In this document: in pieces, positions 793 to 27,313 of the stretch | Layout of the letters: each line of letters starts with the position of its first letter | How positions within the stretch are numbered: position 1 is the first letter of the stretch | Assembly: GCF_021049285.1 (NCBI RefSeq) | Contig: NZ_CP088017.1 | Span: 310,001 to 374,000 of the forward strand | DNA from: Ruania halotolerans | Lineage (GTDB): Bacteria > Actinomycetota > Actinomycetes > Actinomycetales > Beutenbergiaceae | DNA: 64,000 nt | Reading direction: 5' to 3' | The notes under the pieces: generated by a model | Databases searched by the model: none | What the model was told of the DNA's origin: nothing | What the model saw: only the letters and a program-made list of their open reading frames with translations | Translations under genes and position numbers: made by a program

Positions 793-3165
793 CTAACTGT
801 TCACACGGAAGGTTTCCGGGCCCGCGCCGAGGGCGCAGGCACGCTCCAGCGCGTCGGCGGCACCCATCTCGCCCCAGGCAACATGAAACCGGAACTCGTG
901 GAAGCCGCTGACGTCGGCCCGGAAGTTCGTCTCCCACGTCGTGTTCAGGGCCCATGCGGCAACCTCGCGCTGATTCGCCTGCTGGTCCGGGCCGTCGTTC
1001 AATCGGATCGCTCGGTGGTCGATACCACCGAGAGAGATTAACGGTGTGTCCGGAGTGGCGACGGCGACCGCATAACCGCCGGCCTCCTGCACGAAACCTC
1101 GCTGGAGGAGCAGGTAGTCCTGCAACGTGCCGTGGATCTGATCGATCGCCGGGCGTAGCAGCGCGCCGGTCTTCTCGACCCACAGCGTCCCGGCGCCGTC
1201 CGGCCCGAACGGCAGGGGGAGGAGGAGGTTCTCGGCCTCCCAGCTGCCCGCGGCGCGACATCTGACCGAGACGTTCAGCAGCGGCTCGATCATCGAGCAC
1301 TCGAGCTCGACCCGGACGTGCTCGAAGCCGGGCAGGCTCAGCTGTAGCTCGGCTCTGGTGGCAATCGGACCGCGGGAGGTCACCCTAGCGGCGGTGACCT
1401 TGGCAGTGGTGACTGCCGCCTGGGCAGGAGTCCTATTCCTCCCGGACGCCATCCGGGGGCCGACGGGGTCGGAGCCGCTCTGCCATCGCGAGTGCACAGC
1501 GGCGAACGGCGCCTGGCCCGTGCCCCGCAGAATGCTGCGACCGGTGGCGAGGTCGACCACCTCGGCGATCCCACGATGCGGGTCGAGCACGATGCGGGTT
1601 CGCGCTCCCTCCAGGACGTGCTCGTCAGTGTCCTCAGCGCCATTCGTGCTGACGTCGGCGACACGGTCCACCCCAGCGATCTGGCCGATGTGTGCCGGCT
1701 CTTCACGCACCTCCACGACCGTGTCGTAGCCCGGGGGCATCTCGAGCTCGACGAGCAACTCGACCCCTCGCGGCACCGGGCGGCTCTGACAACGCAGGGC
1801 TCTGCCCTCGTGGTAGGCGACCGGCTCCGTGCCGAGGCGCGTGAAGAGCCAGTCATCGATGTGCAGGCGTAGCACTGACAGTGTCGATGCCGATGTGTTG
1901 ACCGCTCGGTAGCGCAACGGCTCGTTCTTCGAGGGCAGGAACGTCTCCCCACCAGCAGCGCGCGCCCGGGTCAGCGCAGCAGTCGCAGCCGCATGGGCCT
2001 GTGCCGCTACCGAGGTCTTCGCGACGTCCTGCGCGACGACGTCGGTCAGCCAGGGCATTAGCACCGAGTGGGAGTGACCCCACGTGTGCTCGGCGTAGAT
2101 CGCGAGCTGTTGTCGCGCCACGGCGACCTCGCTGGTGATGTCCGCGCCCGTCGCGGCGGCCAGGGATCCGGACCGTTCGAGTCGGTGCAGGGCATCGCGA
2201 GCCACCCGGAGTTCGCGAGGAGTCGAGGCGACTCCGTCCGCCCACCAGTCGGTCCAGTCGCCACGCTCGGTGGGAATCTCGCCGAAGGCCGGCTCATCCC
2301 GGAGCGCCTCGAAGAATTCATCGGCGGTGGACAGGCGAACCTGTACGCCGTCCGGATGCCGTTCGTTCCAGTCTCGGACGGCGTCGACGAGTGCAACATC
2401 GGGGGGAGCGTTGTCGGAGGCGGCACCCGAGATCAGCGCCGGAACCACGGAATACGGGTAGTCGCGTTCGGCGAGTCCGTCGAGGTAGTCCGTCATGCGA
2501 TCCCGGCGCATCTGCGCCGACGCGGATGCGCCGTGTCCGTCGTAGGCGTCTCTGATCGTGTAGCTCATCGCCCCGCGGGGGCAGAATCCGAGATCGTTGC
2601 CGAGTTGGTAGTGCGGTGCGACCCAGGCGAGCACCCGGCCGCCCGTCGGTCCCTCCCACCAGAAAGCGCGCTGGTCACGGCCGCCCGGCGCGAGTCCGTG
2701 GTGAGCGTGAATGCTCGAGAACAGGTGCTGCACGCCGTGCCGGGCCAGGATGTCGGCATATCCCCAGGAGTAGCCGTTGATGTCGGCCGTGAGCGCGGTA
2801 CGCAGCGGTTGAGCGTGAGCGGCGAACCAGTCGGTGGCGCGGGCCGTGACCGAGTCCAGCGTGACGGCGTCGATCACCTCCGTCAGGTTGAGGTAGCTGG
2901 CCGACCCGCCGACCTGACCCGATCGGAGCAGTGCGGCTAGCTCGTCGACCTGCTCGCTGCCGGCAGTCGCGAGAAACTGCTCCAACTGCCAGAAGTTCTC
3001 CATCTGCCAGCGATAAGTCGGCGTCGACCGGCACACCCGGACCACCTCGCGCAGGAAGTCTGCGTGAGCACGGGCCACCTCGGCACGAGGGGAGGTGTAG
3101 CCCAGGTCAGTGTGCGAGTGCGGGATCAGGTGGACCGTGAATGGGCGCGCGGTCGAACGCGTCAT
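793..3165 (-). CDS. Glycoside hydrolase family 38-type (alpha-mannosidase-like) protein
   Basis: 790-residue protein with a GH38-like N-terminal domain. The metal-binding H-x-H-x-D motif sits at residues 16-20 (P-H-S-H-T-D), and Asp128 in A-D-I-N-G-Y is the likely catalytic nucleophile and metal ligand. A further His-rich motif (H-T-W-G-H-S-H) lies in the central region, and the C-terminal part is beta-rich, as in GH38. GH38 enzymes are zinc-dependent retaining alpha-mannosidases. Sequence similarity beyond these motifs cannot be judged here, so substrate specificity is inferred. No signal peptide is seen. The gene starts 15 nt after the dehydrogenase stop and belongs to the four-gene minus-strand operon; the beta-mannosidase-like gene on the plus strand supports a mannoside substrate. 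Confidence 0.8.
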   Translation of the reverse strand: MTRSTARPFTVHLIPHSHTDLGYTSPRAEVARAHADFLREVVRVCRSTPTYRWQMENFWQLEQFLATAGSEQVDELAALLRSGQVGGSASYLNLTEVIDAVTLDSVTARATDWFAAHAQPLRTALTADINGYSWGYADILARHGVQHLFSSIHAHHGLAPGGRDQRAFWWEGPTGGRVLAWVAPHYQLGNDLGFCPRGAMSYTIRDAYDGHGASASAQMRRDRMTDYLDGLAERDYPYSVVPALISGAASDNAPPDVALVDAVRDWNERHPDGVQVRLSTADEFFEALRDEPAFGEIPTERGDWTDWWADGVASTPRELRVARDALHRLERSGSLAAATGADITSEVAVARQQLAIYAEHTWGHSHSVLMPWLTDVVAQDVAKTSVAAQAHAAATAALTRARAAGGETFLPSKNEPLRYRAVNTSASTLSVLRLHIDDWLFTRLGTEPVAYHEGRALRCQSRPVPRGVELLVELEMPPGYDTVVEVREEPAHIGQIAGVDRVADVSTNGAEDTDEHVLEGARTRIVLDPHRGIAEVVDLATGRSILRGTGQAPFAAVHSRWQSGSDPVGPRMASGRNRTPAQAAVTTAKVTAARVTSRGPIATRAELQLSLPGFEHVRVELECSMIEPLLNVSVRCRAAGSWEAENLLLPLPFGPDGAGTLWVEKTGALLRPAIDQIHGTLQDYLLLQRGFVQEAGGYAVAVATPDTPLISLGGIDHRAIRLNDGPDQQANQREVAAWALNTTWETNFRADVSGFHEFRFHVAWGEMGAADALERACALGAGPETFRVNS

Positions 3166-3180
3166 CAGAACCTCTCAACC

Positions 3181-4353
3181 TCAGATGCTGGTGGCCGGCT
3201 CGCCCGCGAGCGTGACGGCTCGGCCCTCCAGGTGGGACTCCAGAGCGGCGGCCGCCAACTGATGGGTCATGGCCGCCTCCTGGGGACCGGCGGTCGCGAA
3301 TCGTCCCCCCAGATCGCCTGCACGTTCGGCGAGGAAGCACGCCCACATCTGCAGGATCGCATCGGAGAAGCCGAACTCGAAGATCCCGCCTGTCACGGTC
3401 GGCCAGGCCGATTGACTCCCGGCATCGATCTGCTGCCAGGACTGCTCGCTGCCACCACCGTCGATCGCAACCTTTGCGAACAGCTCGACCCGCTTGGGAT
3501 TCTTGGTACTGAAGCGCACCCCGCCATCCATACCGACCACTTCAAGGAGCCACGTATTCTTCTCGCCTGGTTCGATCCGCTTGGTCTCCACAGTCATCGG
3601 GAATGAGGAGTCCGCGGAATCGACGCGGCAGTGCAGCACGGCGTTGTCCCAGGTGTCGCAGGGCACCAGGGTGCCATCCGGCCCGGGTCGTTCGGTGACG
3701 ATGTTCTCAAGATCGGCGTAGATCGTACGCGGAGCCCACCCGAGCCGCAGTGGCACGTGCCAGGCGTGCAGACCGAGGTCGTTCATCACCCCGGCCGCGC
3801 CGCACGTGGTGACTTGACGCTTCCAGTTGATCGGCTTGTGCACATCCAGGTCGCTGGAGTGCAGGAACGCACTGCGTACTGAGACGATCCGGCCCAACTG
3901 CCCGGACGTGATGGTCCGGTACGCGAGCTGTGCGCCCGGGAAGTACGGCATCTCGCTGGAGCAGCGTACGAACACCTCAGGATGGTCGGCGCAAGCACGC
4001 AGGATTGATTCGGCCGCCGGGCCGTCGATGCCGAATGGCTTCTCGGCGAGCAGGTCCTTCCCTGCCGCGATGACGTCGGTGTAGATGCTCTCGTGCAGGT
4101 CGTGCCGTACAGCCACGTAGACGACGTCGATCTCGTCCGAGGCGAGCATCTCGTGATAGTCGGTGGTGAGTTGAGTGACCGTGTCGATCTGCCGGAACCA
4201 CTCCAGGGCCTCGGGCCGGATGTCGCAGACCGCGGTCAGGCGCGGTCGCACTGGGTGGTCGATCAACGCCGGCCATCGCCCGAGAGCGGCGGCGAGCTCG
4301 CGCCCCATCAATCCGCCCCCGATGATCCCGATCCGCACATCGACACCGCTCAT
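3181..4353 (-). CDS. Gfo/Idh/MocA family NAD(P)-dependent sugar dehydrogenase
   Basis: 390 residues. The N-terminal Rossmann fold starts with G-G-G-L-M-G at residues 12-17. The family's E-K-P motif follows, with Lys105 the probable catalytic lysine (A-E-K-P-F-G). The remainder is the alpha/beta substrate-binding domain that also mediates oligomerisation. Members oxidise or reduce sugars, inositols or sugar-acid derivatives; the substrate cannot be read from sequence. The ATG at 4353 overlaps the aldolase stop by 4 nt, so the two are translationally coupled. It may oxidise a sugar released by the neighbouring glycosidases or take part in redox-assisted glycoside cleavage; both are inference. 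Confidence 0.88.
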   Translation of the reverse strand: MSGVDVRIGIIGGGLMGRELAAALGRWPALIDHPVRPRLTAVCDIRPEALEWFRQIDTVTQLTTDYHEMLASDEIDVVYVAVRHDLHESIYTDVIAAGKDLLAEKPFGIDGPAAESILRACADHPEVFVRCSSEMPYFPGAQLAYRTITSGQLGRIVSVRSAFLHSSDLDVHKPINWKRQVTTCGAAGVMNDLGLHAWHVPLRLGWAPRTIYADLENIVTERPGPDGTLVPCDTWDNAVLHCRVDSADSSFPMTVETKRIEPGEKNTWLLEVVGMDGGVRFSTKNPKRVELFAKVAIDGGGSEQSWQQIDAGSQSAWPTVTGGIFEFGFSDAILQMWACFLAERAGDLGGRFATAGPQEAAMTHQLAAAALESHLEGRAVTLAGEPATSI

Positions 4354-5192
4354 CGGGCGTGCTCCTCGATGATCGCCAGCGCCTCGTCGACACTGGCATC
4401 GGAGTGCACCGTAGCCATCAGTGCCGCCGTGATCCCCGAGGGAGTCCGGTGCTGAATGATGTTGCGCCCGTAGACGATGCCTCGCGCGCCGGCTCGCAGC
4501 ACGGCATGGGTGCGCTCCAGCAGTGTCCGGTCATCCACGCGACCGCCGCCGCGCACGAGCACAGGAACCTCACCGGCCACCTCGATCACCCGCTCGTACT
4601 CGGTGATGTCCTCGGACGGGTCGGCCTTGATCAGGTCGGCACCGAGCTCGACCGCCTGCCGAACGAGTGTGGTAATCCGGTCGATATCGCCGTCCACCAT
4701 GTAGCCGCCGGCGGTCGCGTTGTCCTGCATGACCAGCGGTTCGATCATCAGCGGCATACCGAACCGGGTGGCATCTTCGCGCAGCGCCATGATCGACCGG
4801 ATGTTGGCCTCACGGATGTCGGGACGCCCGGGCAGCTGCATCAGGTTGACGCACACCGCGACCGCGTCAAGGCGGACCGCGACCTCGATCGCGTTCGGGA
4901 CGTGATGGCTGAACAGGTGCTCGTCCAGCGGGTTGCCGTACACATTGGCGACATCGGTGCGCATCACCAGCGCAGGCTTGTCGCGGCGGGCGATGCGCTG
5001 TAGCAGCGGCGCCTGCCCCATGGTCAGCTGCACGGCGTCCGGTGCTGCGTCCACCAGGGTCTTCACCGTGGCGGGCATGTCGGTGATTCCGGCCAGGAAT
5101 GAGGGTTCGCCAAAGAATCCATGGTCCACGGCTACGTCGAGCGCGCGGCCGGATGCCGGATGGAACAGCCGGTTGAGGCGGTAGGCAGTCAC
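4350..5192 (-). CDS. Class I aldolase of the DhnA/FbaB/LacD type
   Basis: 280 residues from the GTG at 5190-5192. An upstream in-frame start exists at 5291, but it would place the coding region across the operator, and the conserved fold begins at the GTG (T-A-Y-R-L-N-R-L-F). It is a TIM-barrel aldolase. The D-H-G-F-F motif near residue 23 and the Schiff-base Lys189 in A-D-L-I-K-A-D fit the FbaB/DhnA/LacD superfamily, which cleaves ketose bisphosphates such as fructose-1,6- or tagatose-1,6-bisphosphate. First gene of the minus operon, diverging from a PfkB kinase-isomerase fusion that could supply the bisphosphate. Exact substrate unknown. Confidence 0.82.
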   Translation of the reverse strand: MTAYRLNRLFHPASGRALDVAVDHGFFGEPSFLAGITDMPATVKTLVDAAPDAVQLTMGQAPLLQRIARRDKPALVMRTDVANVYGNPLDEHLFSHHVPNAIEVAVRLDAVAVCVNLMQLPGRPDIREANIRSIMALREDATRFGMPLMIEPLVMQDNATAGGYMVDGDIDRITTLVRQAVELGADLIKADPSEDITEYERVIEVAGEVPVLVRGGGRVDDRTLLERTHAVLRAGARGIVYGRNIIQHRTPSGITAALMATVHSDASVDEALAIIEEHAR

Positions 5193-5321
5193 GTGCGGTC
5201 CTTGTCCGTCGTCGGGGGATCGCGGCTGAACGCCACGATGTCGATAGGTGCGATATGGCCAGCCGTGTGCCAGAGTAGTGCTGCGAAACAACGTTGTCTA
5301 CCTGAACGAAGGAACCGCAGC
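5193..5321. promoter_or_regulatory. Divergent promoter region with LacI-type operator (core 5288-5297)
   Basis: This 129-nt region separates the minus-strand aldolase operon from the plus-strand kinase-isomerase gene. Positions 5284-5299 carry a near-palindrome whose perfect core is ACAACGTTGT (5288-5297). The stretch GAAACAACGTTGT is identical to the left 13 bases of the perfect palindrome at 8458-8479 upstream of the permease genes. A LacI-family regulator is encoded between the two sites. The simplest reading is that it controls both divergent operons through this site. The kinase gene has a clear ribosome binding site, GAAGGA, at 5308-5313. Confidence 0.7.
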
Positions 5322-7313
5322 ATGCGCAGAGTTGCCGTCGCTGGGCACGTGTGCCTCGACCTCGTCCCCCGGCAGTTGCCGCATGGCGGGCTGGCGCCCG
5401 GATCGCTTGTCGAGGTCGGGCCGATCGAGGTCTCACTCGGAGGAAGCGTCGCCAATGCTGCCCGAACGTTGCAACATCTCGGGCACCCAGTGCGCGCATG
5501 TGCCGTCGTCGGCGACGACGACCTCGCCGAGGTGCTGCGCAGGCAGATGATCGGTCCACTGCTGCAGGCTGATCTCGTTCAGGTGCCGGCGACGACCTCC
5601 TACAGTCTTGTGCTCGAGCCCGGCGGGCAGGACCGGGCGTTCTGGCACCACGTGGGCGCCAACGCCGCGTTCGGCGCGGGTGCACTGGACCTCTCCGGTA
5701 TCGATCTGCTGCACCTCGGCTACCCGTCGCTGCTGCCCGGGCTGGTCGCCAACGAGGGTGAGCCGCTGCTTGCGCTGCTGCGCGACGCCCGGCGGCAGGG
5801 CGTGACGACCTCGGTCGACCTCGCCGTCGTGAGTCCTGCGGATCGCGCGAGCGGGCCGGACTGGGAGCGCCTGCTCCCGGCCTTGGCAGCTGAGTGTGAT
5901 GTGCTTTCCCCCAGTTTGGCCGACCTGCAGTCGATCCTGCCTGACGGCGAGCAGCTGGCCTCGTCCTTTGCGAAGCGGTTGGTGGAGTGGGGAGCGGGTG
6001 TGGTCGCCGTCTCCGACGGCGAGGACGGCCTGACGCTACGGGCAGGCGATCATGTGCGCCTGCGCGCGGGGGGCGCCGCCCTTGCGCCGCTGGCCGATGC
6101 CTGGGCCAGCACATCGCTGCACCAGCGGGCCGTACCCCTTGATCGAGTGGTGACCACGAACGGTGCCGGTGATGCTGTGAGTGCTGCGCTGCTCTACGCA
6201 CTCTCCGTCGAGCTGGGCCCCTCCAGGGCGGCGACGCTGATGGCCGCCGTTGCGGCGGCGGTCGTCTCCGGCGAGGATCCGGGAGCCGACGCCATCGCTC
6301 GGCTGTGCCCGGAACTGGCGGCGCTGGGCGCGATCGAGATCACAGCCAACCAACCGCCGGCCCGGTTCTATCGCGGGGGTGCCCAGATTGCAGGCTTCCG
6401 CGGTCAGGCGCACGTGGACGACTACACCCCGGAGGACTGGGTGGCCTCGACCGTGGAGGTCCGTGGCGACGAGCCGACCGGTCTCACTCGCCTTCCGGAC
6501 GGGACGATCCTGCGCGAGGCCATCGCGGCGCAGCCGGAACACTGGCTGGGTGCGGAGCACGTTGCTCGTTTCGGTGAGGACACGAAGCTGCTGGTGAAGC
6601 TTCTCGACGCCGGGCAGCGCCTGCCGGTCCATGCCCATCCCGACGGCGAGTTCGCCCGGCGTGAGGTCGGCACCGCTCACGGCAAGGCTGAGGCCTGGTA
6701 CATCCTGACCCCCGGCACCGTGCATCTCGGTCTGCGTGAGCCGGTCCGTCAGGAGGAGCTGGCTGACCTCGTCGCGCGCCAGGACGTCGAGTCCATGCTC
6801 GGCCTCTTGCACGAGATTGCGGTGCAGCCGGGCGATTGCGTCTATGTTCCTCCCGGTGTGCTGCACGCGATCGGGGAGGGGATCCTTCTCGTGGAGGTGC
6901 AGGAGCCAGAAGATCTGTCCATCTTGCTGGAATGGCGGGACTTCGATCTGGACGGTGCCGCACACGGTCACCTGGGTCTAGGTTTCGATCGTGCCTTGGC
7001 AGCGGTCGACCTGACGGCAATGACGACCGAACGCCTCGCCGAACTCGTCGTGGCCTCAGCCGGAGGTGCGTGCCTGCCCGAGGAAGCCGAGACCTACTTC
7101 CGGCTCGAGGTGATCTCGGTCGCCGGGGTGACGGACTTGCCCACCGGGTACTGCGTCGTCGTGGGTCTGGAGGGGGACGTACAGATCGGCGGAACCGGTG
7201 GGACGCCCACGTCGGTGGCCGGCGGCAGGGCGGCTTTGGTGCCGGCGTTCGTGGCAGCGCCCTGGCTGGCCGGCACTGGTCGCGTGGTCGTGCTGCGTCC
7301 ACCGCCGCCGTGA
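5322..7313 (+). CDS. Fusion protein: PfkB-family sugar kinase + class I mannose-6-phosphate isomerase
   Basis: 663 residues. Residues 1-330 are a PfkB/ribokinase-type kinase: signature G-G-S-V-A-N-A-A at 40-47 and the anion-hole/catalytic G-A-G-D at 281-284. Residues 345-663 are a class I phosphomannose isomerase: zinc ligands His437 and His439 (V-H-A-H-P), Glu457 (K-A-E-A-W) and His515 (G-V-L-H-A-I), plus a cupin-like C-terminus. There is no frameshift between them; the junction is continuous. The start is the ATG at 5322, 8 nt after GAAGGA. Known activities predict mannose-6-P to fructose-6-P by the C-terminal half. A PfkB-type kinase could phosphorylate that product, or it could act on another sugar. 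The neighbouring aldolase would then split a bisphosphate. The combined pathway is inference; the domain identities are well supported. Confidence 0.88.
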   Translation: MRRVAVAGHVCLDLVPRQLPHGGLAPGSLVEVGPIEVSLGGSVANAARTLQHLGHPVRACAVVGDDDLAEVLRRQMIGPLLQADLVQVPATTSYSLVLEPGGQDRAFWHHVGANAAFGAGALDLSGIDLLHLGYPSLLPGLVANEGEPLLALLRDARRQGVTTSVDLAVVSPADRASGPDWERLLPALAAECDVLSPSLADLQSILPDGEQLASSFAKRLVEWGAGVVAVSDGEDGLTLRAGDHVRLRAGGAALAPLADAWASTSLHQRAVPLDRVVTTNGAGDAVSAALLYALSVELGPSRAATLMAAVAAAVVSGEDPGADAIARLCPELAALGAIEITANQPPARFYRGGAQIAGFRGQAHVDDYTPEDWVASTVEVRGDEPTGLTRLPDGTILREAIAAQPEHWLGAEHVARFGEDTKLLVKLLDAGQRLPVHAHPDGEFARREVGTAHGKAEAWYILTPGTVHLGLREPVRQEELADLVARQDVESMLGLLHEIAVQPGDCVYVPPGVLHAIGEGILLVEVQEPEDLSILLEWRDFDLDGAAHGHLGLGFDRALAAVDLTAMTTERLAELVVASAGGACLPEEAETYFRLEVISVAGVTDLPTGYCVVVGLEGDVQIGGTGGTPTSVAGGRAALVPAFVAAPWLAGTGRVVVLRPPPP

Positions 7314-7398: not shown

Positions 7399-8397
7399 AT
7401 GGATCGTGGCCCCACGATGATCGACGTGGCTGAAGCGGCGTCGGTGTCTTTGAAGACCGTCTCGCGGTATGTCAACGGCGCCACGAACATCAATCCGGAA
7501 TTGGCCGAGCGCATCCGCGAGGCGGTCCAGACGCTCGGTTACCGGCGCAATCTTGCAGCTGCCAGTATCCGCCCGGGGTGGACCAGCAGGATGCTCGGGC
7601 TGATCATCGGTGACCTTGGTAACCCGTACTACTCCACGCTGGCACGAGGAGTCGAGCGGGAGGTGCACGCACGTGGGTACATCCTGACAACGGCCAGCTC
7701 GGATGAAGACGCCACGCGTAACGATGAGCTCGTCGACCGCATGCTCGAGCAGCGGGTGGACGGGTTGATCATCGTGCCTCCGTACACCGGCGGGCGTTCC
7801 TGGGCCGACTTGCCACCCCCGCTGCCGCCGCGGGTGCTCGTCGACAGGCCGGCACCCGAGGGCGGCGGATACACCGTGCTCGCGGATAACGCCGCAGGCG
7901 CGGCGCGCGCGGTCGAACTGCTCGTGCAGGAGGGTGCCACGCGCATCGCCTTCGTCGGCGACTCCGAGCTCATTTCGACCATGGCTGAGCGGCGGCAAGG
8001 GTATGAGTCGGCGCTCCAGGCTGCCGGTATCGCTGCTGACCCCGCACTGGTCGACCACAGTGTGCACACCGACGAGCAAGCCGAACAGGCCGTGGAGCGA
8101 CTGCTGGCCGACCAAGGCGCCGACGCCGTGTTCGCTGCGAACAACCGCGCCTCGATCGGTGCGCTGCGGGCGTTCCGCGCTCGTGGCGAGCGGGTGCCGC
8201 TCATCGGATTCGACGACTTCGAATCGGCTGACCTGACGTCGCCGGCCACGACCGTCGTCAGTCATGACATTGCGCGGATGGGTGCGATCGCGGCACAGAC
8301 TTTGCTCACCCTGATCGATGGGGATGAACCCGCCGCACTCACGACCGTGCTGCCCGTCGCCCTCCGCCGGCGAGGTTCGGAGCGAGCGGCCAGGTAG
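7399..8397 (+). CDS. LacI family transcriptional regulator
   Basis: 332 residues. The N-terminal LacI helix-turn-helix (M-I-D-V-A-E-A-A, then T-V-S-R-Y-V-N-G hinge) is followed by a periplasmic-binding-protein-like effector domain ending in the usual G-F-D-D-F region. The start at ATG 7399 is supported by GAGGAGG 6 nt upstream and by the family's N-terminus; longer in-frame extensions run into non-conserved sequence. It follows the kinase-isomerase gene by 85 nt and precedes the transporter operon. Two matching operators flank it (5288-5297 and 8458-8479), so it is probably the local repressor, released by a sugar or sugar phosphate of this pathway. The effector is unknown. Confidence 0.92.
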   Translation: MDRGPTMIDVAEAASVSLKTVSRYVNGATNINPELAERIREAVQTLGYRRNLAAASIRPGWTSRMLGLIIGDLGNPYYSTLARGVEREVHARGYILTTASSDEDATRNDELVDRMLEQRVDGLIIVPPYTGGRSWADLPPPLPPRVLVDRPAPEGGGYTVLADNAAGAARAVELLVQEGATRIAFVGDSELISTMAERRQGYESALQAAGIAADPALVDHSVHTDEQAEQAVERLLADQGADAVFAANNRASIGALRAFRARGERVPLIGFDDFESADLTSPATTVVSHDIARMGAIAAQTLLTLIDGDEPAALTTVLPVALRRRGSERAAR

Positions 8398-8457: not shown

Positions 8458-8479
8458 CTCGAAACAACGTTGTTTCGAG
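8458..8479. promoter_or_regulatory. LacI-family operator, 22-bp perfect palindrome
   Basis: A perfect 22-bp palindrome with central AACGTT; the inner 16 bases read GAAACAACGTTGTTTC. The central CG dyad is typical of LacI-family operators. Its left half is repeated at 5285-5297 in the divergent promoter. It lies between the LacI gene and the permease genes, immediately downstream of the candidate promoter. Confidence 0.8.
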
Positions 8480-8520
8480 AGAGATGGGCGGTACGCCTTA
8501 CCGTGTTGATCGAAGCCCCC

Positions 8521-9468
8521 ATGCGGAAGCCGCGGCGGTCGCGAAGTCGTCCCCGTTCGCGGGCGGTGCGTAGTGACAAGAGCATCCTGATCCTGGCTGT
8601 GCCGGCCCTGGCGTTCTTTGCCGTGTTCAGCTACGGGCCCATGGTCGGTGTGATCGTGGCCTTCAAGGACTTCAGCATCGTCGACGGAATCATCGGCAGC
8701 CCTTGGAATGGCCTGGAGAACTTCCGCTTCTTCTTCGAATCCGGCAACGCCTCTCGGGTCGTGCGCAACACATTGATGTTGAACGCGCTCTTCATCGGCG
8801 GGACGCTCATCTCAGGCATGGCACTGGCGATCATGATCAACGAGGTTCGGCTGCGGCTTCTCAAGCGGACCGCCCAGTCCGTCGTCTTCCTGCCGTACTT
8901 CATTTCACCAATCGTCATCAGTGTGATGCTGCAGGCGTTCCTGTCCGGCTTCGGCGGCAGCGGCGGGATGGTCAACGGGCTACTGGACGGGTTCGGGATC
9001 TCACCCGTCTCCTGGTACACCGAGCCCGGTGCGTGGCCGTGGATCCTGACCGTCGTCAAGATCTGGCAGATGGCGGGCTACACATCGATCATCTATCTGG
9101 CAGCCATGACGGCGATCCCGACGGATGTCTATGAGGCAGCCGTCCTCGACGGTGCCTCGCGCTGGAAGATCGCTCTGCGCGTCACGATGCCTCTGATCCT
9201 GCCGGTGACCGTCATCCTGCTGGTCCTGCAAATCGGCCGGATCTTCATGGGTGACTTCGGCACGATCTACGCGATCATCGGCGACAACGGCACCCTGTTC
9301 GAGACCACGGATGTCATCGACACCTTCGTATTCCGTGCGCTGCGCACCAGCGGCGACCTCGGCATGACGGCAGCCGTCGGTCTCTTCCAGTCCGTCGTGG
9401 GCTTCGTCCTCATCGCTGCCACGGCCCTCATCGCACGTCGCATCAGCCGAAAGTCAGGAGGGTTGTGA
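8521..9468 (+). CDS. Carbohydrate ABC transporter permease (CUT1 family), first subunit
   Basis: 315 residues from the ATG at 8521; earlier alternatives are a GTG at 8503 and a TTG at 8470 that lies inside the operator and is unlikely. About six membrane segments are visible, the first after a basic N-terminus (residues about 20-45). The cytoplasmic EAA loop is clear (Y-E-A-A-V-L-D-G-A-S), where the ATPase docks. It pairs with the next permease, 4 nt downstream, and with the binding protein. No ATPase gene is present, so a shared MsiK/UgpC-type ATPase elsewhere is expected. Confidence 0.88.
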   Translation: MRKPRRSRSRPRSRAVRSDKSILILAVPALAFFAVFSYGPMVGVIVAFKDFSIVDGIIGSPWNGLENFRFFFESGNASRVVRNTLMLNALFIGGTLISGMALAIMINEVRLRLLKRTAQSVVFLPYFISPIVISVMLQAFLSGFGGSGGMVNGLLDGFGISPVSWYTEPGAWPWILTVVKIWQMAGYTSIIYLAAMTAIPTDVYEAAVLDGASRWKIALRVTMPLILPVTVILLVLQIGRIFMGDFGTIYAIIGDNGTLFETTDVIDTFVFRALRTSGDLGMTAAVGLFQSVVGFVLIAATALIARRISRKSGGL

Positions 9469-9472
9469 GCTC

Positions 9473-10423
9473 ATGACCGCCACTGCTACAAAGAACGCTT
9501 CCACGCCCGCCGCGCCCTCACCCGCGTCACCATCGTCGCGACGGGCTGGCCCCCTGCGGCGCGCCCTACGGGGCGATCCGTTCGTGGGAGTCAGCACCGT
9601 CGCCGTCACGGTGTACGCCTTGGCCTGCGTGATTCCGCTCTGGATCATTTTCGCCTCCTCCCTGACGGCGGAACGTACGTTGGTCCAAACGGGTTTCAGC
9701 CTGTGGCCCTCGGACTTCTCGCTCGAGGCCTACAAGGCCCTGTTCTCCGGGAACGACACTCTCATCAACGCCTATCTCGCCACGCTGGTCATCACCGTGG
9801 TCGGTACAGCGGGCGCCGTGATCGCCACGCTCGGGATGGGATGGGTCATTTCGCGCCGGACGGCGATGGCGCGACGGTTCATGGTCGTTGTGTACATCCC
9901 GATGCTGTTCAACGGCGGCCTGGTTCCGCTGTACATCCTGGTCACCCAAGTACTGCAACTGCGCAACACCTACTGGGCGGTCATCCTGCCCCTCCTCGTC
10001 TCACCGTTCCTGGTGTTCGTGGCGATGGCCTTCTTCCGGGACATCCCCGAGGCCGTGCTGGAGTCCGCACGGATTGACGGCGCCAATGAGCTTCGGGCGT
10101 TCGTCTCGATCGTGCTCCCGATCGCCACCCCGATCGTGGCGGTGATTGCGCTCTTCTACGCCGTGGCCTATTGGAACGAGTGGTTCTTCCCGCTGCTTTT
10201 CATCAACGATCCAGATCTACGACCACTTCAGCTTCTGCTGCAGAACATGATCGGCAATCTCAATGCAGCACAGGCGCTGCAGCCGACGGCGGGCGTCTCT
10301 GCGCCCGTCTATCAACTGAGGATGGCCCTGACCGTCGTGACCATCGGTCCGATCATCCTCGCCTATCCCTTCATCCAGCGCTTCTTCGTGACCGGGCTCA
10401 CGCTCGGTGCGACCAAGGGCTGA
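9473..10423 (+). CDS. Carbohydrate ABC transporter permease (CUT1 family), second subunit
   Basis: 316 residues with an N-terminal Ala/Thr/Pro/Ser-rich cytoplasmic tail of about 35 residues and about six membrane segments. The EAA loop reads L-E-S-A-R-I-D-G-A-N-E. The ATG at 9473 is preceded by GGAGGG at 9458-9463 inside the previous gene. The C-terminus ends in T-G-L-T-L-G-A-T-K-G, typical of this subunit type. Its TGA overlaps the next start (TGATG), indicating tight coupling with the binding-protein gene. Confidence 0.88.
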   Translation: MTATATKNASTPAAPSPASPSSRRAGPLRRALRGDPFVGVSTVAVTVYALACVIPLWIIFASSLTAERTLVQTGFSLWPSDFSLEAYKALFSGNDTLINAYLATLVITVVGTAGAVIATLGMGWVISRRTAMARRFMVVVYIPMLFNGGLVPLYILVTQVLQLRNTYWAVILPLLVSPFLVFVAMAFFRDIPEAVLESARIDGANELRAFVSIVLPIATPIVAVIALFYAVAYWNEWFFPLLFINDPDLRPLQLLLQNMIGNLNAAQALQPTAGVSAPVYQLRMALTVVTIGPIILAYPFIQRFFVTGLTLGATKG

Positions 10424-11991
10424 TGACGCTTCCCCTACAGATTGGAAGACCCGTGGTACACCCTCTCGCCTCATCCGTCAGCCGTCGCCGGATGCTCCAA
10501 GGCTCATTTGCGCTGGGTGGCGCCGGCCTGTTGGCCGCACTTGCCGGCTGCCAGTCCGGTTCCGGTGATAGCTCTTCCGGAGCCGCCACGCTGAAGTCAC
10601 TGCTACCGGGGGACGTCCCGCAGCGGTGGACAGAGGTGCTCGCTGCCGTCAACACCAAGCTCGAGGCCGATACTGGGCTGAGGCTGGATCCCGAGTTCAT
10701 CTCCTGGACGAACTACGCCGAGCAGGAGATGCTGAAGTTCACGACGCAGGAGCCGTTCGATTCGGCCCTCGAGGCGACGTGGCTCAACCTAGCCCAGCTC
10801 CTGTCCGACGGGGCGCTCGCGGACATGACCGAACTCTGGGAGAGCGGCCGGTTCGAGAACCTCAACGCCACGATCGACGAGCGCATGGTGGAGTACGCCA
10901 AGTACCAAGGGAGCCTCTACACGATCCCGCTGGTCGCGAACTTCACCAGTCCGCCCGGGTTCGTGATCCGTCAGGACTTGGCCGACAAGTACGGAATCGG
11001 TGAGATCACCGATTACGAGACACTCGAGAAGTTCCTCTACGACGTCAAGCAGAAGGATCCCGACCTCATTCCCTTCGGGCTCGACGCCGGATATGTGAAC
11101 AACACCGTTGTTCCGAACCCGGTCGCGCTGTTCAATGCGCAGTCCTGGGACGACCCGGCCAAGTGCGTCCAGCTGCTCGGCACTCACTTCGAAGGGTCCG
11201 ACCTGAGCCCGGTCCCGTTCTGGGAGCAGCCGGACATTGTCGAGTCGCTCGATCGCATGCGGCAGTACTACCTCGACGGCATCCTGAACGAGGATGCCCT
11301 CACGCTGGACATGAGCGCCGTCCGGAGTTTGTTCGCCCAGGGCCGCTATGCCTCGACCACTGCAGGTGCAGACGGCCTCACCAGCCCCACGTTCGGACCG
11401 GTGGCCGACAATGTCGACGGTGCGGCGATCGCCCAGGTGTTCCCGTTCACGGCCGGCTTGGACGCCGTCATCCCGGCGACGTTCCAAGCCGCGAACAACA
11501 TGGTCGTGCCCGCCTATGCCGAGACCCTGGAGGAGGTTTTCGAGATGATGGACTGGCTCTCTGTCCAGGAGAACCACGACCTGCTCTCGTACGGCATCGA
11601 GGGAGAGGATTGGGAGGCGACGGGCGAGCACTCCTACGAGCAGATCAGCGGCTATGCATTCCCCGCGTTCGCGATGTCATGGCGCACGCCGCTCGAGCGC
11701 GGGCTAGCCGGCGCGGTCGAGAGCGACCGCGCCTGGGTGGAGTGGACCCGCGACTTCGAGAACTTCAAGGCCGACCACCTCGCAGGCTTCTATTTCGACT
11801 CCTCCGCAGTGGCCTCGGAGCAGGCGCAAGTCAACGCAGTCTTCGACGAATACGTCCTTCCGCTGTACGCCGGTGTCAAGGACGTCCAGCCGGGACTCGA
11901 CGAAGCGCGCAGCGCGATGGAAGACGCCGGCTACGAGACAGTCGTCGAGGAGTACCGCCGCCAGGCCACCGAGTACCTTGCTGGCTCCTGA
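10423..11991 (+). CDS. Extracellular sugar-binding lipoprotein of the CUT1 transporter
   Basis: 522 residues from the ATG at 10423, which overlaps the permease stop; a GTG at 10453 with GGAAG upstream is an alternative. The N-terminus has a twin-arginine-like S-R-R-R-M motif, a hydrophobic stretch and a lipobox ending L-A-G-C, so it is exported and lipid-anchored. The rest is a large solute-binding protein rich in aromatic residues, of the longer (LipO/YtcQ-like) type commonly paired with this permease kind. Expected to capture an oligosaccharide for the two upstream permeases; the ligand is inferred to be mannosidic only from the neighbouring hydrolases. Confidence 0.87.
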   Translation: MTLPLQIGRPVVHPLASSVSRRRMLQGSFALGGAGLLAALAGCQSGSGDSSSGAATLKSLLPGDVPQRWTEVLAAVNTKLEADTGLRLDPEFISWTNYAEQEMLKFTTQEPFDSALEATWLNLAQLLSDGALADMTELWESGRFENLNATIDERMVEYAKYQGSLYTIPLVANFTSPPGFVIRQDLADKYGIGEITDYETLEKFLYDVKQKDPDLIPFGLDAGYVNNTVVPNPVALFNAQSWDDPAKCVQLLGTHFEGSDLSPVPFWEQPDIVESLDRMRQYYLDGILNEDALTLDMSAVRSLFAQGRYASTTAGADGLTSPTFGPVADNVDGAAIAQVFPFTAGLDAVIPATFQAANNMVVPAYAETLEEVFEMMDWLSVQENHDLLSYGIEGEDWEATGEHSYEQISGYAFPAFAMSWRTPLERGLAGAVESDRAWVEWTRDFENFKADHLAGFYFDSSAVASEQAQVNAVFDEYVLPLYAGVKDVQPGLDEARSAMEDAGYETVVEEYRRQATEYLAGS

Positions 11992-12031: not shown

Positions 12032-13981
12032 ATGATGCACAGCACGATCTGGCTCGACGGTGAGGACTGGACACTCCTCGGCTGGCGCCGCAACGACTGG
12101 GAGCTGGCGAGGACGCCGGCGGCGGACAAGGTGGCCAACCCGGACGTGGCCTCGGTGGCGATGCCGATCCCGGGCTCGGTCCGCGGCGCGTTGCTCAGCG
12201 CTGGAGTCATCACGGATCCGACGATTGGTCTGCAATCGCGCGACGCGGAGTGGGTGGAGCACCGCGACTGGGAGATCCGGCGGCAGTTGCCCGACCGGCT
12301 TCTCGGCGGCGACGGTGAGGCACAACTGTGGCTGCACTGTGCCGAACTCGACTATGCCGGGGCGGTCCTGCTCGGCGACCGGGAAGTCGGGAGATTCCAA
12401 GGCAGCTTCGTCCCCCACGAGTTCGATCTGACCGGGCCCTACGAGGACGGCGAACGGACGTTGCGGATTATTCTCACCGCTGCGCCGGACGGGCTGGCGC
12501 AGAACGGGTGGACCTCCCAGATCCGGGCATTCAAGCCGCGCTTCAGCTACGGCTGGGACTGGACTCCCCGGATGGTCTCGGCGGGAATCCCGGGCCGGGT
12601 CTGGCTCGAGCAGCGGCCACGGGACGGCGCGCGGCTTGTCGTCAGCGCTCGGGGTGACGTCGATGTCTCCCGTGATACGGCGGTCCTGGAGGTCGCGGCC
12701 CGTGCCGAGGGCTCCAGGGCCGCGGTGGGCGGTGCCACTGTCGAGGTGCTGCTCGACGGCAAGGTGGTCGGTGTGGGCCCGGCGTCCGCCCTCGATCTTC
12801 GGCTGGACGTGCCGGCCGAGCACTGGCAGCCGGCCGGCCGCGGTGGGCAACCGCTGTACGAGTGCCGGGTGCGCATGTTCGGCGCGGACGGCACGCTGCT
12901 CGACGAGGTCGTCCATCGCCTGGGCTTCCGGCACGTCTCGTGGTCACTGCCTGCGGGTGCCCCGGCCGGGGCCGACAGCTGGCTGTGCTCGGTGAACGGC
13001 ACACCCGTGTTCCTCGCCGGCGTCAACTGGGTGCCGATCCGACCGGACTACGCCGATGTCACCGAGGCCGACTACCGGCTCCGGCTGCAGCGGTATCGGG
13101 AGCTGGGGTTCGCGATGATCCGGGTATGGGGAGGGGCGGGCCTCGAACGCCCCATCTTCTATGACCTGTGCGACGAGCTGGGCCTACTGGTCTGGCAGGA
13201 GTTCCCGTTGTGCTCCTCTGGTCTGGACAACGAGCCACCGAGCGATCCGGAGTTCATCACCGAGCTGGTGAAGGTCGCTGAGAGCTACGTGCAGCACATC
13301 AGGCACCACCCGTGCCTCGCGCTGTGGGGCGGCGGCAACGAGCTGACCCGGGTGGACGAACCCGCCGTCCCTGGTGCACCGCTGACGAGTGACCACCCGA
13401 CCCTCGCGGCACTCCGCCGCGTGGTCGCCGCCGAGGATCCGATGCGCAGATACATCGCCACATCCCCGACCGGGCCCCGCTTCGAGGCTGACGCAGCCGA
13501 GTTCGGACTGGGCCTGCACCATGACGTACACGGTCCCTGGGAATTCACCGGGACCAAGGAGGAGTGGCAACAGTACTGGGACCACGACGATGCCCTGATG
13601 AGATCGGAGGTGGGCGTCGTCGGCGCATCGTCTGGGGACCTGCTGAAACGGCACGGGCTCCTCGAGGCGAGCTCGGGAGCAGAGCTGCGACAGCTGTGGA
13701 CACACACCTCCGGCTGGTGGCTGGCACCCCTCGACGCCTGGCTGGCGCGCGGGCACGAGCTGGCGGAACTACCGCACTGGATCGAGCAGAGCCGGGCGCG
13801 CCAGGCCGAGATGCTTGCCTATGCGGCGCAGCGCAGCAAGGACAGGTTCCCCCTATGCACCGGATTCTTCGTCTGGCTCGGCCATGACACCTTCCCTTGC
13901 GCCGTGAGTCTGTCGCTCCTCGACTATGACGGCGAGCCGAAGCCTGCCGCGCGCGCACTGGGTGAGGTCTTCACGGCCTGA
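12032..13981 (+). CDS. Glycoside hydrolase family 2, beta-mannosidase-like
   Basis: 649 residues, on the short side for beta-mannosidases, which usually run to 800 or more, so a C-terminal accessory domain is probably absent. The N-terminal galactose-binding-like domain (F-S-Y-G-W-D-W-T near residue 172, typical of beta-mannosidases) is followed by an immunoglobulin-like domain and a TIM barrel. The acid/base is Glu437 in G-G-G-N-E-L, and the nucleophile candidate is Glu526 in R-S-E-V-G. No signal peptide, so cytoplasmic. It would remove beta-linked mannose from imported oligosaccharides, complementing the GH38 protein on the opposite strand. Two adjacent ATGs (12032, 12035) are possible starts. 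Confidence 0.88.
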   Translation: MMHSTIWLDGEDWTLLGWRRNDWELARTPAADKVANPDVASVAMPIPGSVRGALLSAGVITDPTIGLQSRDAEWVEHRDWEIRRQLPDRLLGGDGEAQLWLHCAELDYAGAVLLGDREVGRFQGSFVPHEFDLTGPYEDGERTLRIILTAAPDGLAQNGWTSQIRAFKPRFSYGWDWTPRMVSAGIPGRVWLEQRPRDGARLVVSARGDVDVSRDTAVLEVAARAEGSRAAVGGATVEVLLDGKVVGVGPASALDLRLDVPAEHWQPAGRGGQPLYECRVRMFGADGTLLDEVVHRLGFRHVSWSLPAGAPAGADSWLCSVNGTPVFLAGVNWVPIRPDYADVTEADYRLRLQRYRELGFAMIRVWGGAGLERPIFYDLCDELGLLVWQEFPLCSSGLDNEPPSDPEFITELVKVAESYVQHIRHHPCLALWGGGNELTRVDEPAVPGAPLTSDHPTLAALRRVVAAEDPMRRYIATSPTGPRFEADAAEFGLGLHHDVHGPWEFTGTKEEWQQYWDHDDALMRSEVGVVGASSGDLLKRHGLLEASSGAELRQLWTHTSGWWLAPLDAWLARGHELAELPHWIEQSRARQAEMLAYAAQRSKDRFPLCTGFFVWLGHDTFPCAVSLSLLDYDGEPKPAARALGEVFTA

Positions 13982-14081
13982 GTCAGCGGCCCCCACGCAT
14001 TCCTCGTGCCCAGCGGCCCCGGTCGTACGGCCAGTCGCTCAGGGCCCACCGATCGGTATGACCGCACCAAGGAGATTTCGT

Positions 14082-24448: not shown

Positions 24449-27313
24449 ATGCCCGCAACTGCCGCCCCACTCGATCAGGTGCGGGACGCCGTCGCCCCAG
24501 GTGCCTGGAGCACCGCGACGGCGGATCTCGCCGGGATGGCGCACGACGCCTCCCACTATCTGCTCCGCCCGCGCGCCATCGCCACCCCGGCCACCTTCCC
24601 TGAGCTCGTGGCGGCACTGACCGCGGCCCACCGCGCAGGTCAGCCGGTGACCTTCCGCGCCGGTGGCACCTCCCTCTCCGGCCAGGCCGGCACCGACGGC
24701 GTGCTGATCGATGTGCGCCGCCATTTCGACGAGGTGGAGGTGCTCGACGGTGGCGCCAGGGTGCGGTGCGCGCCGGGCGCCGTGCTCCGCCGGGTCAATG
24801 CCATGCTTGCGCGGTACGGCCGCAAGCTCGGCCCCGACCCCGCTAGCGAGATCGCCTGCACGGTGGGCGGAGTGGTGGCGAACAACTCCTCCGGCATGAC
24901 CAGCGGGATCGCCGCCACGGCCTATCACACGCTCGATTCGATCCGTTTCGTGCTGCCCACCGGCACGGTGGTAGATACCGCCGAGGCGGATGCCGACGCG
25001 CGGCTGCGAGCCGCAGAGCCGGACCTGCATGACGGGCTGCTGCGCCTACGTGAGCAGATCCGTTCCACACCGGCCCTCCGGGCGGTGATCGAGCACCAGT
25101 TCTCCATGAAGAACACGATGGGCTACGCGCTCAACGCATTCCTCGACCACGATGATCCGGCACAGATTCTCGCTCATCTGATGGTCGGCTCGGAGGGCAC
25201 CCTCGGATATATCGCCTCGGTGGTGCTGCGCACCGTTCCGGTGCCCACCGAACATGCGACCGCACTGTTGGTGCTCGATTCCGCCGGGGCTGCGACCGAT
25301 GCCCTCCCGGAACTGCTCGGAGCCGGCGCACGGGCCGCCGAACTCATGGATGCCGCGGCCCTGCGCGTGGCACAGCGACTCCCGGCCGCACCGGCACAGA
25401 TGAAGGACCTCCAGGTGTCCGGCCATGCGGGTCTCCTGATCGAGTTCCAGACCACCGATGCCGGTGAACTTGCCGACCAGGTGGCCGCGGCCCGGCCAGT
25501 GCTCAAGCGCCTCGGGGTCGCCGCCGAGTTCACCTCCGAAGCCTCCGCACGTTCGGCCATGTGGGTGGTGCGCAAGGGGCTGTACGCCGCAGTGGCCGGA
25601 GCACGCCGCCCCGGCACCACCAACCTGCTCGAGGACATCGCCGTTCCCCCGCCGGCGCTCACCGACACGGTGCACGGGCTGGCTGGCCTGTTCGATCAAT
25701 ACGGGTACGACGACGCCGTGATCTTCGGCCACGCGCGGGACGCGAACCTGCACTTCATGATCACCCCGAACCTCGACGACGCGGGCGAGTTGGCCGGCTA
25801 TGAGGCATTCACCGAGGACATGGTGGATCTGGTGCTCGGCGCCGACGGCACTCTCAAGGCCGAACACGGCACGGGCCGGATCATGTCTGCCTACGTGCGC
25901 CGTCAGTTCGGGGACGAGCTGTACGCGGTGATGGGTGAGGTGAAGCGGCTGTGCGATCCCCGCGGCATCCTCGCCCCCGGTGTGCTGCTCGATGATGATC
26001 CTCGCGCGCACGTGCGCAACCTCAAGGTGGTGCCGACCGTGAACGGCGCGGTGGACCGGTGCGTGGACTGCGGATTCTGCGAGCCTGCCTGCCCCTCGCG
26101 TAACACCACCACCACGCCGCGCCGCAGGATCGCCCTGCTCCGGGAAGCCGAACTGGCCGGCGCATCCGGCGATACCGCCACCCAGTCCCAGATCGAATCC
26201 GCGTACTCCTATGACGCCGTGCAGACCTGTGCGGCGGACTCCCTGTGCGCCCGCGCCTGCCCCGTGGACATCGACACCGGAGCGGTGATGAAGTCCTTCC
26301 GCGCCGCCGAGCACGGCCCGTTCGCCCAACGCGCCGGGGGAGCGGTGGCCGGGGCATGGAGTCCCGTCAGCGCTGGTCTGCGCACCGGCCTGCGGATTGC
26401 CGACGCCGTGCCCTCACCCGTACTCAGTGGTCTGACCTCCGCCTTGCGGGGGGTGCTCCCGCATGAGCTGGTGCCCGCCGTCGGTGCAGATCTGCCCGGT
26501 GCGGGCAGCCGCCGCAGTGATCTACCGGCCCGGGAGGCCAGGCAGGGTACCGAGAGCGAGCAGGCACATGGCGACGCTGTGTTCTTCCCCTCCTGCACCG
26601 GCGCGATGTTCGGCCCTGCCTCGGGCGGAGAGGGAGCCTCGGCTGCGTTCCTCGAGGTGTGCGAGCGGGCCGGCCTCGATGTGATGCTCGCGGACCGGAT
26701 CGACGAACTGTGCTGCGGGACGCCGTGGGCGTCCAAGGGGTTCACCGACGGGCAGAATGCGATGGCCGCCCGCGTCGCGGATTCGGTCATCGCCGCCACC
26801 GACGGCGGCCGGTTGCCCCTGGTCTGTGACGCCGCCTCATGTACGCACGGCCTGGCCGACCTGGCCGCCCACCTTGACCCGGTGCGTGCCACCCTATGGT
26901 CTGAGATCGAGGTGCTGGACGCCGTGACCTTTGTTCGCCGCGAGGTGCTTCCCCGTCTCGACGTGCCTGTGCAGCTGGACACCCTGGTGCTGCACCCCAC
27001 CTGTTCCACTGAGCATCTGGGCACGGGCGGTGACTTGCAGGCGGTGGCCGGTGCGGTCGCCCGCGAGGTGACGGTGCCGCCGTCATGGGGGTGCTGCGGG
27101 TTCGCCGGGGACCGGGGCATGCTGCACCCGGAGCTCACTGCCGGCGCCACCGAGGCCGAGGCGGAGGAGATTGGTGCCATCGAGGCTGCGGACGGAATGT
27201 TCGACAGCTACGCCTCGTGCAACCGCACCTGTGAGATGGGGATGTCTCGTGCGACGGGGCGCGAGTACGAGCACGTCGTCGAAGTGCTCGCCCGCCTCAC
27301 CCGCCCGGTGTGA
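24449..27313 (+). CDS. FAD- and Fe-S-containing D-lactate dehydrogenase-like oxidoreductase (D-2-hydroxyacid dehydrogenase type)
   Basis: 954 residues in one chain. The N-terminal part (about 1-460) is a VAO-type FAD domain: F-R-A-G-G-T-S-L-S-G near residue 70 and V-V-A-N-N-S-S-G near 142. Two ferredoxin-type motifs follow, C-x2-C-x2-C-x3-C-P from Cys538 and a second from Cys594. The C-terminal half carries two C-C-G cysteine-rich motifs (E-L-C-C-G-T-P and W-G-C-C-G-F) of the heterodisulfide-reductase/GlpC type. This layout matches quinone-linked D-lactate dehydrogenases (Dld-II/YdiJ-like) that oxidise D-lactate or D-2-hydroxyglutarate and pass electrons to the membrane. Monocistronic; 160 nt downstream of the transporter operon. 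Substrate not certain. Confidence 0.88.
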   Translation: MPATAAPLDQVRDAVAPGAWSTATADLAGMAHDASHYLLRPRAIATPATFPELVAALTAAHRAGQPVTFRAGGTSLSGQAGTDGVLIDVRRHFDEVEVLDGGARVRCAPGAVLRRVNAMLARYGRKLGPDPASEIACTVGGVVANNSSGMTSGIAATAYHTLDSIRFVLPTGTVVDTAEADADARLRAAEPDLHDGLLRLREQIRSTPALRAVIEHQFSMKNTMGYALNAFLDHDDPAQILAHLMVGSEGTLGYIASVVLRTVPVPTEHATALLVLDSAGAATDALPELLGAGARAAELMDAAALRVAQRLPAAPAQMKDLQVSGHAGLLIEFQTTDAGELADQVAAARPVLKRLGVAAEFTSEASARSAMWVVRKGLYAAVAGARRPGTTNLLEDIAVPPPALTDTVHGLAGLFDQYGYDDAVIFGHARDANLHFMITPNLDDAGELAGYEAFTEDMVDLVLGADGTLKAEHGTGRIMSAYVRRQFGDELYAVMGEVKRLCDPRGILAPGVLLDDDPRAHVRNLKVVPTVNGAVDRCVDCGFCEPACPSRNTTTTPRRRIALLREAELAGASGDTATQSQIESAYSYDAVQTCAADSLCARACPVDIDTGAVMKSFRAAEHGPFAQRAGGAVAGAWSPVSAGLRTGLRIADAVPSPVLSGLTSALRGVLPHELVPAVGADLPGAGSRRSDLPAREARQGTESEQAHGDAVFFPSCTGAMFGPASGGEGASAAFLEVCERAGLDVMLADRIDELCCGTPWASKGFTDGQNAMAARVADSVIAATDGGRLPLVCDAASCTHGLADLAAHLDPVRATLWSEIEVLDAVTFVRREVLPRLDVPVQLDTLVLHPTCSTEHLGTGGDLQAVAGAVAREVTVPPSWGCCGFAGDRGMLHPELTAGATEAEAEEIGAIEAADGMFDSYASCNRTCEMGMSRATGREYEHVVEVLARLTRPV

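Follow-up and report, generated by a model that had tools for sequence, protein, structure and literature searches.

A PfkB kinase-PMI-like isomerase fusion within a conserved aldolase module of Actinomycetota, and a possible route for free mannose through a ketose 1-phosphate

The soil actinobacterium Ruania halotolerans and its relatives carry a conserved set of genes for a Gfo/Idh dehydrogenase, an aldolase, a kinase and an isomerase resembling phosphomannose isomerases (PMI-like), the last two of which are adjacent or fused. In the window analysed here, a stretch of 64,000 nucleotides (C1:310001-374000 of the R. halotolerans genome), the two form a single protein. The reading that we tentatively prefer is that a free aldose, probably D-mannose, would be converted to the ketose and then to the ketose 1-phosphate, which would be cleaved to DHAP and an aldehyde. 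With slightly more reserve we suggest that this may be an undescribed actinobacterial route, in which a PMI-derived cupin would isomerise free mannose or a close relative, a kinase would phosphorylate the product at C1 and a dedicated aldolase would split it, all without mannose-6-phosphate (Man-6-P) as an intermediate, with interchangeable kinases, isomerases and aldolases and with isomerase and kinase fused in some lineages.

Results

Domains of the fusion protein

Translation of the fusion frame gave no internal stop. An earlier note on this DNA had described an uninterrupted chain with a PfkB and a PMI-type half, and the ATG-to-stop frame and the Pfam and PDB matches agree on this. Pfam PfkB covered residues 1-319 with an E value of 1.7e-24 and 87 bits, above the cut-off of 25.8. 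The catalytic motif was found where it had been claimed, as GAGDA at 281, and G281, G283 and D284 were invariant in 17 relatives. The nearest solved relatives of this domain are ribokinase, KDG kinase and fructokinase. The C-terminal half carries HAHP at 437, HGKAE at 453 (including Glu457) and His515, and matched the solved PMIs 1qwr and 1zx5 in a sequence search (E 8e-13). AlphaFold2 gave confident models of the PMI domain (mean pLDDT 96.4), with PMIs as the top PDB matches, and of the full-length fusion (pLDDT 90.2), which matched PMIs and ribokinases. Foldseek aligned the PMI-domain model to 1zx5 (E 5e-23) and 1qwr (E 2e-22) with TM scores of 0.76-0.83, and the PMI cupin fold is therefore present.

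Table 1. Positions of the fusion gene, its domains and neighbouring genes in the window
Feature	Coordinates	Strand	Characteristics
Divergent GH38 (alpha-mannosidase family) protein	793..3165	-	Glyco_hydro_38N E 3e-24; 15 bp downstream of the dehydrogenase, same strand
Gfo/Idh/MocA dehydrogenase	3181..4353	-	Pfam; start overlaps aldolase stop (ATGA)
DhnA/LacD-type class I aldolase	4350..5192	-	280 aa from GTG; Pfam DeoC E 9e-30
Intergenic region aldolase/fusion, presumed shared control region	5193..5321	.	Position only
PfkB kinase-PMI-like isomerase fusion	5322..7313	+	663 aa; ATG at 5322, stop ends 7313
Kinase domain, ribokinase fold	5322..6296	+	GAGD catalytic motif at residues 281-284; Pfam PfkB, solved relatives
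PMI-like cupin isomerase domain	6327..7310	+	His437/His439/Glu457/His515/Lys455; alignment and structure matches; no Arg274 equivalent by sequence alignment
LacI-family regulator	7399..8397	+	Pfam; LacI gene also adjoins most related modules
Probable ABC sugar importer	8470..11991	+	Permease-like ORFs 8470-9468 and 9473-10423; lipoprotein binding protein about 10420-11991
GH2 protein	12032..13981	+	Best solved relatives beta-mannosidases (5n6u E 6e-49)
FAD/Fe-S 2-hydroxyacid dehydrogenase (GlcD/YdiJ type)	24449..27313	+	About 17 kb from the module

Fused and separate genes

A fusion of kinase and PMI-like isomerase is encoded by several Ruania genomes, by Leifsonia sp. TF02-11 (L003) and by two other genomes (L095, L096). 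Among named relatives, the closest one found, in Ruania rhizosphaerae, has the same frame at 94% identity. Since this frame is kept in R. rhizosphaerae and the fusion occurs in three further lineages, it is not due to chance, and its repetition in these genomes rules out an artefact. At nine loci (L002, L021, L022, L030, L031, L036, L048, L049, L097) kinase and isomerase are encoded by two genes, which either adjoin or share a few bases. A single origin of the fusion is compatible with the kinase tree, though not proven by it. Distant PMIs were the only matches in a plasmid collection, none of them over most of the query. A full-text literature search gave no description of a fusion of PfkB with a mannose-6-phosphate isomerase, which is not proof of its absence. 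Both the fusion and the conserved module are real.

The PMI-like half compared with ManA

The manA model TIGR00218 matched the C-terminal half with an E value of 4e-11 and 42.5 bits, below the cut-off of 116.2, and a full-scoring ManA is encoded elsewhere in the same genome (C1:1246165). Residues of 80 relatives, of E. coli ManA and of the ManA encoded in this genome were compared in a MAFFT alignment. Lys86, His99, Lys132, Glu134, His255 and Glu264 of ManA were retained in all 80 relatives. All 80 likewise had His at the position of Gln97, Gly at that of His131 and Leu, Met or Val at that of Arg274 (Leu in the window), the last in a stretch where the alignment is ambiguous with respect to the short Bacillus PMI. 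Arginine is likewise absent from this position in 1zx5, a putative PMI. The PMI-like half thus shares with ManA the fold, the metal-site His/Glu/His and the catalytic Lys, and differs from it by Gln97 to His, His131 to Gly, Arg274 to Leu and the low TIGR00218 score. The earlier note had recognised the full set of four class I PMI zinc-ligand motifs; the positions of His437, His439, Glu457 and His515 were right, but in the alignment the counterpart of His437 in E. coli ManA is Gln97, and Arg274 has no counterpart. Judged by its sequence, this half of the protein falls outside the canonical class I PMIs.

In a Bacillus class I PMI, Gln98, Lys116 and Glu118 are described as important for catalysis, and the enzyme shows weak activity on several free sugars, with a more than 1000-fold preference for Man-6-P; D-mannose is not included among the listed substrates (PMC4718643). 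The altered Gln97 and Arg274 positions could also mean that the PMI-like half is catalytically dead or is a sugar sensor regulating the kinase. This is very improbable, given that all 80 relatives have the same metal-site residues and the same Lys/Glu pair and that the PMI-like protein is also encoded by a free-standing gene in dozens of operons.

Gene neighbourhood

The fusion gene diverges from a Schiff-base aldolase, as had been noted: the DeoC/LacD profile and the Schiff-base lysine of the DhnA/FbaB/LsrF class I aldolases are both present, the lysine aligning with those of LsrF and MJ0400. Relatives in the PDB are MJ0400, LsrF and an archaeal FBP aldolase. The importer binding protein belongs to DUF3502 (Pfam), and the two permeases were assigned by reading. 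Homologues of the FAD/Fe-S 2-hydroxyacid dehydrogenase lie near the module in L003, L049, L095, L096 and L097.

GH38 genes are found near the module in the window, L001, L022, L048, L100 and L101, and both GH38 genes of genomes G1110 and G1111 are located near it. A relative of GH2 beta-mannosidases is present in the window and in L155. These mannosidase-family genes make free D-mannose the first-choice substrate. Phmmer found no solved relative of the window GH38 protein. The L097 locus has GH78 and sulfatase genes and the window has a sulfatase gene (20992-22443, between ABC transporter genes), which leaves room for other sugars. The glycosidase cluster of the window also contains an 881-aa ORF (13926-16571) that matched no Pfam or NCBIfam model; relatives of this ORF form a tandem pair in genome G105 (L103 3925-10617).

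Conservation of the module and replacement of its parts

The Gfo/Idh dehydrogenase gene adjoins the aldolase gene at the kinase-PMI loci and at almost every locus of the wider aldolase family. It was absent from the earlier note, and its coupling to the aldolase in nearly every relative makes it doubtful that the module is self-contained, as that note had proposed.

The triad of isomerase, kinase and aldolase recurs across Actinomycetota, with members of different families. Of 20 loci examined in the wider family of the aldolase, 13 have an FGGY kinase gene adjoining the aldolase gene, and in seven it lies next to a PMI-like gene. L100 and L101 lack the PMI-like gene; there, a D-lyxose/D-mannose isomerase gene follows the kinase, and two GH38 genes are in flanking positions. 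The L100 isomerase matched 7nzo with an E value of 3e-60, and its homologue in L101 was assigned by reading. At L146, a xylose-isomerase-like TIM barrel is encoded next to the dehydrogenase. Aldolase, dehydrogenase and FGGY kinase occur with no PMI-like gene nearby at L142, L143 and L147, so that the isomerase is not universal in the module. Three loci with aldolase, dehydrogenase and FGGY kinase (L148, L151, L146), two of them with a PMI-like gene, belong to small genomes of 1.2-1.5 Mb and low GC. Aldolase relatives of 53-56% identity at L152, L153 and L154 have no Gfo/Idh gene; in the first two, DhaK/DhaL-type kinase genes adjoin the aldolase, and another kinase type may therefore pair with it.

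Stand-alone PMI-like genes were found at 70 loci, most of them 47-59% identical. In 45 of the 70, genes for an ADP-glucokinase-like kinase (PF04587) and a class II aldolase (PF01116) lie directly upstream, so the triad recurs with an unrelated aldolase. In the loci inspected, an ABC importer is encoded upstream of these operons. The genome of R. halotolerans has a second PMI-like gene (C1:1805612-1806616; L102 7827-10932) whose operon also encodes an ADP-glucokinase-like kinase, a class II aldolase and an ABC importer, an arrangement common in Microbacterium and Arthrobacter. Elsewhere, an amidohydrolase gene is located beside the PMI-like gene (L004 5861-11011, L074 8875-11050), and L004 also has an FGGY kinase-like ORF and a fucose-isomerase-like gene, which suggests further pathways for the PMI-like isomerase family.

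Comparison with described pathways

The nearest described logic is that of the sulfo-EMP pathway, which combines a PF00294 kinase with a PF01791 aldolase (PMC9594981). Like the module as we read it, the pathway of E. coli and Arthrobacter (YihS, YihV, YihT) uses a free-sugar isomerase, a PfkB ketose 1-kinase and a DeoC/LacD class I aldolase that yields DHAP and an aldehyde (PMC9594981). In the module, however, the isomerase is a PMI-like cupin and not of the YihS type, the context is one of mannosidases, and kinase and isomerase can be fused. A query with E. coli YihS gave no match in the 20 wider aldolase loci, no YihS-like gene was seen in the 24 related loci scanned, and YihV sits on a very long branch of the kinase tree, where its placement is unsure. 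Despite the matching architecture, these comparisons do not support membership in the sulfo-EMP pathway.

L-Rhamnose and L-fucose catabolism (RhaABD, FucIKA) also proceeds through an isomerase, an FGGY ketose kinase and an aldolase that releases DHAP and an aldehyde. This is the same logic, and the wider relatives of the module use FGGY kinases too, but the isomerases and aldolases belong to other families, and the window has a PfkB kinase and a Gfo/Idh dehydrogenase.

The earlier note had drawn a parallel to the LacC/LacD tagatose-6-phosphate pathway, which likewise pairs a PfkB superfamily kinase with an aldolase of the DeoC/LacD family. The parallel is not supported. The kinase scored 38.7 bits with TIGR03168 (cut-off 216) and 31.7 bits with TIGR03828 (cut-off 292), outside the 1-PFK/LacC/FruK subfamily by score, and the aldolase gave no match to TIGR01232 (lacD) at E 1e-3. 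The inositol route was rejected as well: IolC_N was the top-scoring NCBIfam model for the kinase, but with 42 against 300 bits. Bifunctional IolC-type kinase-aldolase proteins (family described in NF047869) resemble the fusion in joining a PfkB kinase to another pathway enzyme, which is an aldolase there and an isomerase here.

Discussion

The order of steps that we propose relies on the replaced parts. FGGY kinases act on free ketoses, and the D-lyxose/D-mannose isomerase family has free sugars as substrates. That members of these two families take the kinase and isomerase positions of related modules points to isomerisation first, followed by a ketose kinase and a DHAP-forming aldolase. One fused protein would then perform two consecutive steps on the free sugar. 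The PMI-like cupin is predicted to be a metal-dependent aldose-ketose isomerase for an unphosphorylated manno-configured sugar, most likely converting D-mannose to D-fructose, and the PfkB domain would phosphorylate the ketose at C1. The DhnA-type aldolase would cleave the ketose 1-phosphate via a Schiff base to DHAP and an aldehyde, which in the case of mannose would be D-glyceraldehyde. The Gfo/Idh dehydrogenase, presumably made together with the aldolase, would contribute a redox step somewhere in the route, and in several genomes the FAD/Fe-S 2-hydroxyacid dehydrogenase may remove an acid derived from the aldehyde. The free sugar would be supplied by the encoded mannosidase-type enzymes and the ABC importer under LacI control. 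Substrate, step order and phosphate position, as well as the activities and the role of the dehydrogenase, are read here from sequence and gene order.

Several observations weaken this reading. FGGY enzymes can phosphorylate C5 as well as C1, and the Bacillus PMI strongly prefers Man-6-P. The window GH38 protein is divergent, and other loci have GH78, sulfatase or no recognised glycosidase genes. The alignment at Arg274 is ambiguous, and some modules do without the isomerase. Finally, a route that simply leads from mannose to fructose-1-phosphate offers no place for the Gfo/Idh step.

This last point bears on a rather unlikely alternative, in which the same steps act on a different sugar, manno-configured or modified. 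Candidates are 6-deoxy-D-mannose (D-rhamnose), which would yield D-lactaldehyde, D-lyxose, which would yield glycolaldehyde, and sulfated or oxidised forms of mannose as substrates of the Gfo/Idh enzyme. The near-constant presence of Gfo/Idh, the sulfatases near the modules of the window and L097 and the D-lyxose/D-mannose family of the L100/L101 isomerases are consistent with this alternative, and the FAD/Fe-S 2-hydroxyacid dehydrogenase would suit D-lactate or glycolate. The neighbouring mannosidase-family genes, however, speak for mannose as such, we recognised neither a D-rhamnosidase gene nor one specific to lyxose, and a D-rhamnose route of this kind was not found in the literature search.

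The kinase might instead act first, as a mannokinase forming Man-6-P that the PMI domain would pass as fructose-6-phosphate (Fru-6-P) to glycolysis, while aldolase and Gfo/Idh dehydrogenase serve another sugar in the same regulon. The PMI fold is best known for 6-phosphosugars and the closest folds are PMIs, mannose would need a kinase, and the one encoded here resembles ribokinase and fructokinase. We nevertheless consider this order unlikely: by far the most loci have the aldolase linked to the kinase-isomerase pair, related clusters have FGGY kinases in place of PfkB, and at Gln97 and Arg274 the PMI-like family differs from ManA.

The pathway given in the earlier note, from Man-6-P through Fru-6-P and fructose-1,6-bisphosphate to two triose phosphates, would amount to a private upper glycolysis like LacC/LacD. 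It draws on the PMI fold, the LacD-like aldolase family and the PfkB superfamily, among which phosphofructokinases exist. Such a route would duplicate central glycolysis and the ManA encoded elsewhere in the genome, and no source of Man-6-P was recognised in the cluster. The aldolase lacks a lacD match, whereas the LacD-type aldolases of L095 and L098 have one. With a non-canonical PMI half, a kinase far below the 1-PFK cut-off, and FGGY kinases and a free-sugar isomerase family in the corresponding positions of relatives (the latter at L100/L101), we regard this route as improbable and its order of steps as probably wrong. The broader idea of a module running from Man-6-P to triose phosphate is retained in part: fusion and divergent aldolase would work together as an isomerase, kinase and aldolase triad that recurs in Actinomycetota and should end in triose phosphate, but it would probably not start from Man-6-P.

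If the route through a free sugar and its ketose 1-phosphate is correct, many genes of Microbacterium, Arthrobacter and their relatives that would receive the annotation mannose-6-phosphate isomerase, class I, would encode isomerases of a catabolic, DHAP-forming route and not Man-6-P isomerases; this would concern the stand-alone loci described above, including those next to a kinase and an aldolase. The direct fusion of consecutive steps would provide a test case for channelling, and Actinomycetota, small-genome lineages included, would possess a new pathway for mannose or a related sugar.
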